This document shows positions 16,588-33,638 of a stretch of 38,022 nucleotides of DNA, one piece after another. Origin of the DNA: Novosphingobium sp. (GTDB lineage Bacteria > Pseudomonadota > Alphaproteobacteria > Sphingomonadales > Sphingomonadaceae); assembly GCA_015657645.1 (NCBI GenBank), contig JACDQK010000223.1:1-38022 (forward strand). Reading direction: 5' to 3'. Position 1 is the first letter of the stretch, and the number at the start of each line of letters is the position of its first letter. Made by a program: the position numbers and the translations under genes. The notes under the pieces were generated by a model. The model worked only from the letters and a program-made list of their open reading frames with translations. It searched no databases and was not told the DNA's origin.

Positions 16588-16629
16588 GTTCACGCAGAGG
16601 CGCAGAGCAGAAAGTGGAGGCGCAGAGCG
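16588..16629. repeat. Left inverted repeat of the GxxExxY cassette
   Basis: gttcacgcagaggcgcagagcagaaagtggaggcgcagagcg; 38/42 identical to the reverse complement of 17023-17064. Confidence 0.9.
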
Positions 16630-16632
16630 GCT

Positions 16633-17022
16633 GTGATTTCTATCAACGAACTGAGTGAAATCGTCATTGCCGAAGCGATCGGGATCCATAAGGAATTTGG
16701 GCCGGGTTTGTTTGAATCTGTTTATGAGTCGGTGCTTGCCGGACGCTTGACGAAGCGTGGTCTGAAGGTCGCCCGGCAGGTTCAGGTTAAAGCCGTCTTC
16801 GACGGGGAGACCTTCGATCCGGCTTTCAAGATCGACATATTGGTCGAGGACCGATTGGTTCTCGAAATCAAGGCAGTCGAACAGCTGAGCCGCGCTCACG
16901 GCAAGCAGGTTTTGACCTATCTCAGGTTGCTCAAGCAGCCGGTCGGGCTGCTTCTGAATTTCTCGGAGGAGACGATGAAGGAAGGTATTCGGAGAGTAGC
17001 CAACGACTACCAACCCGAATAA
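16633..17022 (+). CDS. GxxExxY protein (PD-(D/E)xK nuclease-superfamily-like)
   Basis: Motif GLFESVY (GxxExxY) and FKIDILVEDRLVLEIKAVE (D...ExK core); GTG start 3 nt after the left IR and TAA directly abutting the right IR. Confidence 0.88.
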   Translation: MISINELSEIVIAEAIGIHKEFGPGLFESVYESVLAGRLTKRGLKVARQVQVKAVFDGETFDPAFKIDILVEDRLVLEIKAVEQLSRAHGKQVLTYLRLLKQPVGLLLNFSEETMKEGIRRVANDYQPE

Positions 17023-17064
17023 GCCTCTGCGCCTTCACTTTCTTCTCTGCGCCTCTGCGTGAAC
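17023..17064. repeat. Right inverted repeat of the GxxExxY cassette
   Basis: gcctctgcgccttcactttcttctctgcgcctctgcgtgaac; reverse complement matches 16588-16629 at 38/42 positions. Confidence 0.9.
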
Positions 17065-17080
17065 TAATCGGACCTCGAAA

Positions 17081-18280
17081 ATGGAAACCAGAGCTGGCGA
17101 TCCGGGCGCCTTTGCCAACTTCGACCTCAGCCGGGTCGATAGTCCTGCTTTCGTGGTCGATGCCGCGAAGCTGCGGGCGAACCTGGCCGTGCTGGCAGAA
17201 GTGCGCGACCGGGCCGGGATCAAGGTGCTGGCGGCGCTCAAGGCCTTCTCGATGTGGAAGGTCGCGCCGATCGTCGGTGAATACCTCGACGGGGTCTGCA
17301 CTTCGGGCCTGTGGGAGGCGCTACTGGCGGCCGAGCATTATCAGGGCGAGATCGCGACCTATTGTGCGGCCTACAAGGCGGACGACCTGCCGGAAATCTG
17401 CCGACTGTCGGATCATATCATCTTCAACTCGCCGACGCAGATTGCCCGCTTTGCGCCGCAGATCGAGGCAGCTCGGCAGCGCGGCGATACCTTCGACGTT
17501 GGGCTACGGATCAATCCGCTCCACGCCGAGGGCGAAGTGCCCAAGTATGACCCTTGCGCCCCGCACTCGCGGCTGGGCTTCCCGGCCGATCAGCTGACCG
17601 ACGAGCACATGGCGGGCGTCAACGGCCTGCACTTCCACACCCTATGCGAGCAGGATTTCGAACCGCTGGAACGGACCTGGCAGGCGCTACTACCGCGGAT
17701 CGAGCGGTTCCTGCCGCAATTGGAATGGCTGAACTTCGGTGGCGGCCATCACATCACTCGCGCCGATTACCAGCGCGATGAGCTGGTTGCGTTTCTGAAG
17801 GCGGTGAAGGCGCAGACTGGCTGCGAGATTTATCTGGAGCCGGGCGAGGCCGTGGCGCTCGATGCCGGGATCCTGGTCGGCACCGTGCTCGACCGGCATT
17901 GGAACGGCATGCCGATCGGCATCATTGACATCTCCGCCACCTGCCACATGCCCGACGTGATCGAGGCGCCCTATCGCCCGGCCATGCTGGGCGAACTGCC
18001 GCCGGTCGATACCGAGACCGATGAAGGCGCAGGCGGGGCAGTGCGGCTCGGCGGGCCGTCATGTCTGGCGGGCGATGTAATCGGGGACTATCGCTTTGCG
18101 AGCGGCCCGGAGATCGGTCAGCGCTTCGCCTTCCTCGACCAGGCGCATTACTCGATGGTCAAGACCACGACCTTCAACGGCGTGCCACTGCCCTCGATCT
18201 GGCTGTGGGACAGCGAGACCGACCAGCTCGAGTGCATCAAGCGCTTCGACTACGAGGACTTCCGCGACCGGCTGAGCTAG
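17081..18280 (+). CDS. nspC: Carboxynorspermidine decarboxylase
   Basis: Fold-type III PLP decarboxylase: VLAALKAFSMWKVAP, GVNGLHFHTLCEQ, LEWLNFGGGHHIT, GGPSCLAGDVIGDYRF; downstream of the dehydrogenase. Confidence 0.92.
   Translation: METRAGDPGAFANFDLSRVDSPAFVVDAAKLRANLAVLAEVRDRAGIKVLAALKAFSMWKVAPIVGEYLDGVCTSGLWEALLAAEHYQGEIATYCAAYKADDLPEICRLSDHIIFNSPTQIARFAPQIEAARQRGDTFDVGLRINPLHAEGEVPKYDPCAPHSRLGFPADQLTDEHMAGVNGLHFHTLCEQDFEPLERTWQALLPRIERFLPQLEWLNFGGGHHITRADYQRDELVAFLKAVKAQTGCEIYLEPGEAVALDAGILVGTVLDRHWNGMPIGIIDISATCHMPDVIEAPYRPAMLGELPPVDTETDEGAGGAVRLGGPSCLAGDVIGDYRFASGPEIGQRFAFLDQAHYSMVKTTTFNGVPLPSIWLWDSETDQLECIKRFDYEDFRDRLS
18184..18280 (+). repeat. Direct repeat copy 1: 3' end of nspC
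   Basis: 97 nt encoding PLPSIWLWDSETDQLECIKRFDYEDFRDRLS*; aligns without gaps to 20387-20483. Confidence 0.85.
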
Positions 18281-18394
18281 CAATGACGCGGACTTGTCGG
18301 CCCTAGTCCCGCATCCCTTGTTGCAGCTTAATTTTGTCGGTTGCGAAATCCCTTTACTGGCGTGATGCTAAGGACAGGGAGTTGGGAAGCCTGC

Positions 18395-19645
18395 ATGGCA
18401 GTTGTAGCGGCTATACATGGTATCGGATTTTCTCAGCCTGGGGCACTTGAACCGTTCCTCAAGAAGGTAGCCTCCGGGGGAGGTGATTGCTTTGTAGATG
18501 CCAATTGGAACGATGTGGCTACCAAAGATTACGGTGATGAAATTACGCTGAATAAGGTTGCACAACTGGCGGCTGCCCTTGCGGAAATCTCTGAGATACG
18601 CCCAATGTCACGAATTTCAGGTCGGCTTGATCGCGCTACTGAATGGTCTATCGATCTAATTGATATATATTTGACGGCCATTTTTTGGTTGCTCCCGCCG
18701 ATTTTTGCCACACTTCTTCTCACACTAGTTCAAGATTTGCACTTCCCGTTACTTCCCAGTGTACTGCTGAAATTTGCCACGATCTACTCGATCGGTTTCA
18801 TCGTTATTCTCGGCGTTTCGGGACTGGCTTTGCTGTTGCTGGTGCTTACGGGTGCACCGGCACTAGCCATCGCTCGGGTAAACCATATTTTTGTGGCAGG
18901 GTTGAGGCCAGGTCTGATCATGGCCTTTGCCTATCTGGCCATCACGCGTTGGAAGGGAGCCTTGGGCTGGTATGGCTCGTTGACGCTCCTTGCGCTGCTG
19001 GCCTTGCTTGGTTTCGGACTGCTCCAGTACCTGGATATCGCAGGCGATGTGAGGTGGATACTCGGTGCAGGCATGTTTGTGGTTTACATCGTAGCTCCGC
19101 TGCTTGCTGCCCGATTGATCATGCCCGCGCTTAAATTGACTTTTGACGTACTTCTTTACGTAACCGATCCCGAATATCGCGCAGCAATCATCACAAGTGT
19201 GATAAGCAAAATTAATGAGAAACAAAAAGAAATTGAATCTGATGGTCGACTTATATTAATTGGACATAGTCTTGGATCGGTGATCGCGGCAGACATAATA
19301 AATTCAGGACGTCTTTTTGGAAAGTTCGATACGGTTTTGTTGGTGACCGCTGGGTCCCCTATCCGCCGTATGTTCCAAAGACTGCTTCCTGGGCATTTAC
19401 TGCCACCGCACTCCGAGGAGATTCTCAAAGCCGGAATGCAACAATTTCGGTTCCGCTGGATAAACTTTTACCGAAGGTTCGATGGAGTTGGCGCCAAGCT
19501 TGGCTTGCCCGCTGCCTACGGCTGTGCAGAGCGCGCATCGCGTTTGATCCGAGATCCATTGACTTCGCACGTCGGGTACTGGGATGAACCCGACTTCGTT
19601 TCGTTCATCCGATGCGCTGCTGAAGGGATGGACAGCGATGGATGA
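18395..19645 (+). CDS. Predicted integral-membrane alpha/beta (serine) hydrolase
   Basis: AAIHGIG (oxyanion-strand motif) near the N-terminus, several TM segments, then LILIGHSLGSVIAADI nucleophile elbow and a C-terminal SHVGYWDEPDF candidate His. ORF opens at 18341; ATG at 18395 (MAVVAAIHGIG) preferred. Confidence 0.75.
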   Translation: MAVVAAIHGIGFSQPGALEPFLKKVASGGGDCFVDANWNDVATKDYGDEITLNKVAQLAAALAEISEIRPMSRISGRLDRATEWSIDLIDIYLTAIFWLLPPIFATLLLTLVQDLHFPLLPSVLLKFATIYSIGFIVILGVSGLALLLLVLTGAPALAIARVNHIFVAGLRPGLIMAFAYLAITRWKGALGWYGSLTLLALLALLGFGLLQYLDIAGDVRWILGAGMFVVYIVAPLLAARLIMPALKLTFDVLLYVTDPEYRAAIITSVISKINEKQKEIESDGRLILIGHSLGSVIAADIINSGRLFGKFDTVLLVTAGSPIRRMFQRLLPGHLLPPHSEEILKAGMQQFRFRWINFYRRFDGVGAKLGLPAAYGCAERASRLIRDPLTSHVGYWDEPDFVSFIRCAAEGMDSDG

Positions 19646-20321
19646 AGCGATTTACCGATGGTCTAAACCAAAGCGGCCGTTTTCTAAGTCGTGGCAGCAG
19701 AGCCTGCGAAAGTTTGTGCTGTTCATCGCTATCGCCTATTTTGCACTTGAGCTCGGCGCAGACTTCTTTTTTGCATTTAAAACCAATAAGTTGCAGCAGG
19801 AAACGGATCTGGCTTTGGTACATGTGCCAGGCAAGAAGATATGGATGAGGCGAGTGGTTTGGCAAAGCATTTCTGCGACGCCAGGGAGCCCCGGTTCCAG
19901 TGAAGTCGTGCTTGAAGGGCTGCCCAGTCACTGCAATCGAGGCACTGAGGTTATCAGGCAAACCGGACCTGAAGTGCGCGACTGGTGCTCAAAGGTTCTG
20001 GTTGATATCAACGCCGTAACCAAGACAATGAAACCGTGCAAAGCCCGTCCAACCTTGGCCGATTTGTGCTCTGAAGGATGGGTGGAAGTTAAGATCAAGG
20101 GCGATCGTATATCCTTTGGTCCGGCCAGTGGAACCTACGGTGAAGTAGTACTTTTCTTTCGAATTCTCATAGCGAAGGTTCGAGTCTTGATTTTGTGGCC
20201 ATTCGCCTTGGGCCTGGCGGTTCTTCCATTAGGACTTCTCGATTTCGTTTACGGTCGGGAGGAGATGGACTGGCTCGATGACCTGGACGAGGCAGAGGAT
20301 GGGGAACAGTTGAAAAGCTGA
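19638..20321 (+). CDS. Hypothetical two-TM protein, partner of the upstream membrane hydrolase
   Basis: Starts MDEAIYRWSKPKRPF with ATG overlapping the upstream stop (ATGGATGA). N-terminal TM (KFVLFIAIAYFALELGADFFFAF), central region with four Cys, C-terminal TM, acidic tail. Confidence 0.65.
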   Translation: MDEAIYRWSKPKRPFSKSWQQSLRKFVLFIAIAYFALELGADFFFAFKTNKLQQETDLALVHVPGKKIWMRRVVWQSISATPGSPGSSEVVLEGLPSHCNRGTEVIRQTGPEVRDWCSKVLVDINAVTKTMKPCKARPTLADLCSEGWVEVKIKGDRISFGPASGTYGEVVLFFRILIAKVRVLILWPFALGLAVLPLGLLDFVYGREEMDWLDDLDEAEDGEQLKS

Positions 20322-20386
20322 GGCTATGGACTCGCTTTGGTAAAGGGGGGCGGCCAGCGGATCTTGCTTGGTCGCAAAATATTCAC

Positions 20387-20483
20387 GCCATTGCCCTCGA
20401 TCTGGCTGTGGGACAGCGCGACCGACGAACTCGAGTGCGTGAAGCGGTTCGGTTACGAGGACTTCCGCGGCCGGCTTTCCTGA
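20387..20483 (+). pseudogene. Direct repeat copy 2: remnant of an nspC 3' end
   Basis: Encodes PLPSIWLWDSATDELECVKRFGYEDFRGRLS*; 82/97 nt and 26/31 aa identical to the nspC terminus at 18184-18280. Confidence 0.85.
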
Positions 20484-20519
20484 GGCACAGTCCCCGGCAT
20501 AACAAAGCCGGAGAGCGCA

Positions 20520-21764
20520 GTGCCTGACAAGATCCTAGACGCCCATTCATCCGACCCCGTCACTATGGGCTGGATGGAAGGCCTGCCGCCTGCGCCGGAC
20601 AAGCGGCTGGCCTGGGCGCGGGCCGATCACATGCGCTTTCCCACCCACCGCTATGCCTATTCGCGCATGCGTGAGTTTCTGCCAACTGCGCGCGTCTCGC
20701 GCGGGACAGGGCCGGTCTGGGACCTGCCGGTGGCGCTGCGCGACGATATCGACGGCATCACCTTCAACGCGATGGACGATGGCCGCGCGCTGACCTGGGC
20801 GGAATCGCTGGCGGTCAACTTCACCGATGCCGTGCTGGTGCTGCATCGGGCCGCGATTGTTTATGAGCGCTACCTCGGCGTCACGCGGCAGGACACGCCG
20901 CATATCGCCTTTTCTGTGACCAAGAGCTTTGTCGGCACCCTGGCGGAGATGCTGGTCCGGGAAGGACGACTTGACCCCTCAGCTCCTGTCGCGGCCTTGC
21001 TGCCCGAAATGGCCGGTAGCGGCTTTGCCGATGCCACCCTGGCCCAGGTCATGGACATGACCACGGCGCTCGACTTCTCGGAAGAGTATACCGATCCCAG
21101 CTCCGGCATCGGGGCGATGAGCAATGCCCTGGGCCTGACCCCGCGTGCACCCGGCTACACCGGCCCCGGCGATGTCTATGCCTTCCTGCCGACGATCCGC
21201 AAAAGCGGCGAGCATGGCGAACGGTTCACCTACCGGACCTGCAACACCGAAGTGCTGGGGTGGATCGTCGCTCGCACCGAAGGCAAGCGAATCGACCAGG
21301 TGCTGTCAGAGCGAATCTGGGCGCCGCTGAGCATGGAACAGGATGCCGATTTCCTGATCGATTCGACTGGCATGCCCTTCGCGGGCGGGGGACTAAATCC
21401 CGTACTGCGCGACATGGCCCGATTCGGGGAAGCGATGCGCTGCGACGGGCAAGGCAACGGGGGGCAGGTGATCGCCCGCGAAGTGGTCGCGGCGGTCAAG
21501 GCCGGAGGCAGCAAAGCAGCCTTCGCACCGGCCGGATATCAGTGGCTCAAGGACGGATCCTATACCCGCCAATGGTGGATAATGCCCGGAAATGACGGCG
21601 CTTTTTCCGCGCGCGGGATCCATGGCCAGGCGATCTATGTCGATCCGGTGGCAGAGGTGGTGATCGTCCGGTTCGGCTCGCATCCCATCGCCGCCAACAC
21701 GGCCTTTGACCCCACCTCGCTGCCGGCCTTCCGGGCGGTTGCCGAGCACCTCTCGCGGGCTTGA
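20520..21764 (+). CDS. Serine hydrolase, beta-lactamase/class C-like family
   Basis: SVTKS (SxxK) nucleophile motif, YRTCNTEVLGWIV, C-terminal GIHGQAIYVDP; resembles 6-aminohexanoate-dimer hydrolase/beta-lactamase-related proteins. Confidence 0.82.
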   Translation: MPDKILDAHSSDPVTMGWMEGLPPAPDKRLAWARADHMRFPTHRYAYSRMREFLPTARVSRGTGPVWDLPVALRDDIDGITFNAMDDGRALTWAESLAVNFTDAVLVLHRAAIVYERYLGVTRQDTPHIAFSVTKSFVGTLAEMLVREGRLDPSAPVAALLPEMAGSGFADATLAQVMDMTTALDFSEEYTDPSSGIGAMSNALGLTPRAPGYTGPGDVYAFLPTIRKSGEHGERFTYRTCNTEVLGWIVARTEGKRIDQVLSERIWAPLSMEQDADFLIDSTGMPFAGGGLNPVLRDMARFGEAMRCDGQGNGGQVIAREVVAAVKAGGSKAAFAPAGYQWLKDGSYTRQWWIMPGNDGAFSARGIHGQAIYVDPVAEVVIVRFGSHPIAANTAFDPTSLPAFRAVAEHLSRA

Positions 21765-32777: not shown

Positions 32778-32957
32778 ATGGCCGAACAGTTCACCAAGCA
32801 TCGCCAGCCGTGGAAGAGCGACGAAGTCGCCAAGCTGCGCACCCTTGCCGCCAAGGGCAAAGGCCTGAAGGAAATCGCCAAGGCGCTTAACCGCAGCGAG
32901 GAATCGACCAAGGAGCGCGCCAAGATCGACGGGATCGGGATCGCCAAGCTGCGGTAA
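32778..32957 (+). CDS. Small putative HTH/SANT-like protein (59 aa)
   Basis: MAEQFTKHRQPWKSDEVAKLRTLAAKGKGLKEIAKALNRSEESTKERAKIDGIGIAKLR*; helix-turn-helix-like pattern; too short for the ORF track. Confidence 0.55.
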   Translation: MAEQFTKHRQPWKSDEVAKLRTLAAKGKGLKEIAKALNRSEESTKERAKIDGIGIAKLR

Positions 32958-33032
32958 TCCAACGCGAAAGTTCTGGCATCTTCAACGCACCTGCGGCATC
33001 ATTAGTCTCTCTACCGGATCACGGGAGGTGAC

Positions 33033-33638
33033 ATGATTGAGCTCCTCGCTTTTGCGGCCCAGGCTCTGACCATGGCCAGTACGGCTCCGCTTAATTGGCC
33101 GCAGGACAGCGGTCAGCAAGCCGGTGCGGCCGCGGTTGAAGTGCTGATTGATCCTGCGGGCAAGGCCCTGCGCTGCGATACAGCGGCGACTGTCGGCGAT
33201 GCGGCCACGGTCGCGCGCATCTGCCCGCTACTGCAGTCGCGGCGCTGGCGGCCAGCCAATCTGGCTGACGGGCAGCCGGCCTATGCGGTCTATCGTGATG
33301 TTGCGAAATACCGTCGCGGCGAAGCGGGCGGCCCCGATACCGTCCCGAGCCGTTCGGTCGAGCAAGTCCGGCTGGCCTATCAGATGGCCGATTTCACGCT
33401 GGCCACGGCCGGGCCGCTTCCTGGCAAGACAAGCGAGCGAGAGGCCGCCACGACCGTGCTGGTGAACGAGTCAGGGGTGATCGCGGCCTGCGACGCTGCC
33501 AGTGGCACCGGCGCCCGCAAGCTGCGCAAGGCCGCCTGCGCTGCCTTGCCGGGGCGCAAGCTGAAGCGGCAGCTCGATCCCGCTGGCTCGGCAGTGGCCT
33601 ATGTCACGACGGTGAAGGTCGGCTTCACCGCTAGCTGA
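33033..33638 (+). CDS. Hypothetical protein with two TonB-C-like segments
   Basis: AAAVEVLIDPAGKALRCDTAATVGDAATVARICPLLQSRRWRPA and a similar later segment (TTVLVNESGVIAACDAASGTGARKLRKAACAAL...); internal-duplication appearance. Confidence 0.5.
   Translation: MIELLAFAAQALTMASTAPLNWPQDSGQQAGAAAVEVLIDPAGKALRCDTAATVGDAATVARICPLLQSRRWRPANLADGQPAYAVYRDVAKYRRGEAGGPDTVPSRSVEQVRLAYQMADFTLATAGPLPGKTSEREAATTVLVNESGVIAACDAASGTGARKLRKAACAALPGRKLKRQLDPAGSAVAYVTTVKVGFTAS

Follow-up and report, generated by a model that had tools for sequence, protein, structure and literature searches.

A probable displaced nspC gene end beyond a two-gene insert in a Novosphingobium genome

This locus raises the question of why the 3' end of nspC, a carboxynorspermidine decarboxylase gene, occurs twice on one contig, and which of the two copies is native to the lineage. 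The contig (C2) is the entire window, that is, the whole 38,022-nucleotide stretch of Novosphingobium sp. DNA that was analysed, and belongs to a 3.0-Mb genome assembled in 334 contigs with contamination of 1.1%. The genes nspC, orfA, orfB and the serine hydrolase gene described below, and both copies of the nspC end, lie on the forward strand.

The repeated nspC end

Realignment confirmed the 97-nt direct repeat, in which positions 18184-18280 and 20387-20483 agree without gaps at 82 of 97 sites (15 differences) and close with different stop codons, TAG and TGA, respectively. The upstream copy, or proximal end (P, 18184-18280), is in use, and the nspC reading frame runs unbroken into it. The downstream copy, or distal end (D, 20387-20483), has no start codon. 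In a protein search this copy corresponded to nspC residues 368-399 with E = 4.5e-12, so its likeness to nspC is not a matter of chance. An independent conserved gene ending at 20483 was ruled out, given that a start is lacking and the nspC homology stops at 20387. Both copies open with an identical 27-bp run, which sits within a stretch conserved across the genus and is therefore unspecific as an attachment (att) core.

The inserted segment between the copies (18281-20386) has a GC content of approximately 51%, with no match at this site in relatives and none in plasmids. Homology to all close relatives stops on the left at the nspC end and resumes on the right at 20387-20394. As the original prediction had noted, the segment holds two ORFs of clearly lower GC (orfA, 0.503; orfB, 0.510) than the window (0.642), and every one of the six 2-kb windows with the lowest GC on the contig begins within 18100-18600. 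The ORF list and family profile searches returned only orfA and orfB from the 2.1-kb insert and no recombinase or integrase, in keeping with the earlier reading that none was visible. No convincing terminal inverted repeats flank the pair.

To assign the two ends, D and P were ranked by similarity against 47 nspC tails. The top six tails for D are exactly those of the six nearest species (85-89 of 97 positions), an outcome expected with a probability of about 1e-7 if the ranks were random. The nearest tails for P are those of G138 and G124 (88/97 each), and the sister species G131 reaches only 77/97. Taken species by species, sign tests at the 15 sites that differ within the 97-bp tails were individually weak (p = 0.03 for G131, 0.13-0.30 for others), so the argument for the native end rests on the ranking and on the continuation of D into native sequence. 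D is followed by the native spacer (20484-20519), with the 40-bp stop-to-start spacing seen in the sisters, and then by a serine hydrolase gene of the beta-lactamase family (20520-21764; PF00144, E 3.8e-33), the native neighbour of nspC. Identity to the sisters is 92-94% across 20484-20583 and again 92-94% for the hydrolase gene, which in those genomes adjoins nspC.

On these comparisons of sequence, D is the displaced native end of nspC, as had been proposed. P most likely arrived together with the cargo, as its affinity departs from the species tree. A recent tandem duplication or local copying, already doubted in the original prediction, was ruled out since each copy is nearer to the tail of another species than to its counterpart (P-D 84.5%, D-G122 91.8%, P-G138 90.7%).

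The predicted empty site was found in the four nearest species (G131, G077, G122 and G154), in which nspC is followed after 40 bp by the serine hydrolase gene and the cargo is missing. Their tails also bear out the expectation that the native terminus would resemble the copy at 20387. The two outcomes that the prediction had set against itself did not arise: empty-site genomes exist, and D is not the end of an independent gene. A tree of approximately 21 kb of flanking sequence gave (G131,(G000,(G154,(G122,G077)))), beside G004/G171, with every fork well supported; it places the source genome among those four species, which together with G004 and G171 make up the six nearest. As the site is cargo-free in the four nearest species and the cargo is absent from the other genomes of the genus that were searched, the insert would most simply have entered the lineage of the source genome after its split from G131, G077, G122 and G154.

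What arrived: nspC sequence and cargo

The original prediction had envisaged a foreign nspC allele arriving with its cargo. Import of the 3' end stands, but a whole foreign allele was not established, given that G131 shares the nspC body (17081-18183). Taken whole (17081-18280), nspC scores 409.1 bits against TIGR01047, barely above the cut-off of 409.05. In the block 17281-17880 the source genome and G131 are grouped (100/98), far from G077, G122 and G154 (loci L105, L108 and L107), and a topology holding the five species together was rejected (p-AU 7e-5). Identity to G131 is 84.7% in 17281-17980 versus 84.2% in the upstream flank, and a body at flank-like identity makes a wholesale foreign allele unnecessary. 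The body thus probably descends from a common ancestor with G131 and is native to the lineage. Against G077, G122 and G154 it is 76-77% identical, whereas the flanks are at 87-90%.

From approximately 17900 onwards, informative sites move toward G004/G138-like states, with p = 0.19 in a tree test of 17900-18280. The incoming nspC sequence may therefore be as short as a portion of the last 97 bp or as long as about 0.4 kb, and would be longer if the similarity to G131 had another cause; the 3' end is the only part of the gene that is demonstrably out of place. As a separate observation, the nspC block of G077, G122 and G154 is approximately 89% identical to G004/G171, with flanks at 80-86%, which suggests an older nspC replacement in their ancestor. 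The G154 gene (L107) also has about 100 bp missing internally.

The first cargo gene, orfA (18395-19645, with an alternative upstream TTG start possible at 18341), encodes a predicted membrane-spanning alpha/beta-hydrolase. Its product carries an N-terminal HGIG motif, GHSLGS and a C-terminal SHVGYWDE, with hydrophobic segments in between, and gave weak matches to alpha/beta-hydrolases, including sub-threshold matches to Pfam hydrolase families. Across 401 genomes of the family, a distant relative was found in G578, with one 31%-identical stretch and the corresponding motifs HGVG, GHSLGS and HLDYWHE. The best guess for this product is an enzyme of the serine hydrolase type, bound to the membrane. 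The second gene, orfB (19638-20321, with an alternative upstream ATG start possible at 19584), encodes a small protein for which a low-confidence model predicts two hydrophobic helices. Its likely start overlaps the orfA stop (ATGGATGA). Single-sequence structure models reached pLDDT values of 47 for orfA and 51 for orfB, which is too low for comparison of their folds.

Neither gene occurred in the genus search, which covered 195 other genomes, and orfA had no match in 319 genomes of the class. Profile and sequence searches returned neither a family nor a relative for orfB, and no relative of orfA was found among solved structures. Comparison with defence families gave no match to the cargo, plasmids and phages yielded weak hydrolase-like matches at most, and peptide-pattern scans of genome_contigs revealed no donor. 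With its low GC content and its absence from relatives, the cargo looks foreign, as the original prediction had held.

How the insert may have entered

The favoured explanation, judged reasonably probable, is a one-sided recombination at the 3' end of nspC in which the gene remained intact and its old end was displaced. Foreign DNA comprising an nspC 3' end followed by orfA-orfB would have entered the lineage and recombined with the chromosomal nspC through homology, so that the incoming end resealed the gene and left it complete. On the other side the junction would lie just within the native nspC end, and this end would have been pushed 2.2 kb downstream to become the fragment at 20387-20483 before its old neighbour, the serine hydrolase gene. 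We infer both that this was a single event and its route. A RecA-type one-sided event is favoured over an integrase, either as homology-facilitated illegitimate recombination or as a single crossover of a circularised fragment. The former has a homologous anchor on one side, which is present here in nspC, and would close the other junction through microhomology; in E. coli conjugation it is rare, at 3e-10 per recipient cell, and circularised DNA also integrates there by single crossover (PMC3240628). Of the two routes offered in the original prediction, insertion at the 3' end accounts for the locus no less well than allele replacement does, and so does a one-sided recombination.

The arrangement would also suit a small integrative element, such as a phage satellite or island remnant, that used an att site at the nspC 3' end, brought a gene end of its own, and had its integrase lost or supplied in trans. 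Its anatomy would be that of e14 in icd/icdC, where the element-borne end reseals the gene and the native end is displaced, and the identical 27-bp opening run would suit an att core. However, that run is conserved across the genus, the 2.1-kb insert holds no recombinase, and there was no sign of reuse of an nspC attachment site in the genus: no second nspC end was found in the other genomes of the 196, where short second matches span 32-50 bp. The missing recombinase and the missing second ends make an integrase origin less likely, and an element of this kind is considered rather unlikely. An undescribed integrase-less cassette, carrying its own gene end and a membrane-hydrolase module of two genes, using the nspC 3' end as its attachment site and mobilised in trans, appears very improbable. 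Replacement of native nspC by a whole foreign segment (a GxxExxY gene, a complete nspC and orfA-orfB) that spared the last 97 bp would explain the clearly different nspC body of G077, G122 and G154 and the absence of the upstream GxxExxY gene from G077, G122 and G131. This is improbable, given that G131 shares the body type, diverging there about as much as in the flanks, and has a D-like end but neither the cargo nor the GxxExxY gene, and that the GxxExxY gene has an inverted-repeat unit of its own and could have moved independently.

Two further explanations concern the repeat itself. In so fragmented an assembly, reads of two strains or of two organisms could conceivably have been joined at a gene end that occurs twice; such an artefact deserves little credence, as both sides of the contig are consistently affine to the same sister species, contamination is low and native synteny resumes exactly at the gene end. 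Tandem duplication of the native end, with the cargo later inserted between the copies, would account for a gene end that is present twice in tandem orientation, but D and P are not mutual nearest relatives, and this origin is hardly credible.

Parallels and the nspC/hydrolase junction

The displacement of a gene end by insertion is already documented in other bacteria, and nspC is an unusually clear example. In the account of PMC11148124, which cites Hill et al. (1989), the e14 prophage in E. coli icd leaves a 165-bp native end, icdC, beyond the insert, with 12 differences. In both cases a metabolic gene received an insertion in its 3' part, the incoming DNA supplied a working, somewhat changed end, and the native end lies beyond the insert. 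The displaced end here is 97 bp with 15 differences, and whereas e14 is described as a prophage with an integrase gene, the present insert is 2.1 kb with two genes and no integrase. In the immunity-gene arrays of V. cholerae type VI secretion (T6SS) clusters, old genes have been shifted downstream, for which homology-facilitated illegitimate recombination is a possible cause (PMC5361080). These arrays likewise have an anchor of upstream homology and old 3' sequence moved downstream with a remnant kept; however, their modules are effector-immunity pairs that underwent repeated rounds of displacement, in contrast to one proposed event beside a decarboxylase gene.

Minimal mobile elements consist of different cassettes found between the same two conserved genes across genomes, with no mobility genes. 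The nspC/hydrolase gap resembles them in holding alternative cassettes, with at least four contents across species, although the comparison here is between species and not strains. In addition, the duplicated nspC end remains, whereas a clean two-crossover exchange through both flanking genes leaves none. Such elements are known from Neisseria (Saunders and Snyder, 2002, as cited in PMC2649163).

The scar is of value in that it separates native from arrived sequence inside one gene, and it illustrates that a metabolic gene can survive an insertion at its end. With it, the nspC/hydrolase junction stands out as a settling place of unrelated cassettes in the genus, and its cargo genes are orphans there, one of them a predicted membrane hydrolase.

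Several other contents of this gap were observed. In G137, G204, G157, G152 and G008 (L142-L146) it holds a divergent gene pair, one member of which is LemA-like by eye, and in G186 and G130 it holds a gene for a small protein with a signal-like start. In G004 (L154), G121 (L150) and G143 (L080) it is occupied by gene-free palindromic elements of 187-217 bp, the ends of which resemble GxxExxY arms (in G004, TTCACGCGAAGACGC...GCGTCTTTGCGTGAA). These elements are possibly non-autonomous forms of the GxxExxY unit.

In the window, that unit lies between the upstream gene and nspC, with the GxxExxY gene (TIGR04256) at 16588-17064, and is bounded by 40-bp inverted repeats that are 95% complementary. 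Most of 15 GxxExxY genes sampled in relatives have such arms, which match within a locus, and in the source genome the arm sequence is confined to this one pair. The unit occupies the same junction in many species and is missing from the sisters G077, G122 and G131. Elsewhere in the window, a segment of approximately 0.67 kb (32957-33628) with an ORF whose start resembles a signal peptide is missing at that position in G077, G122, G131 and G004.
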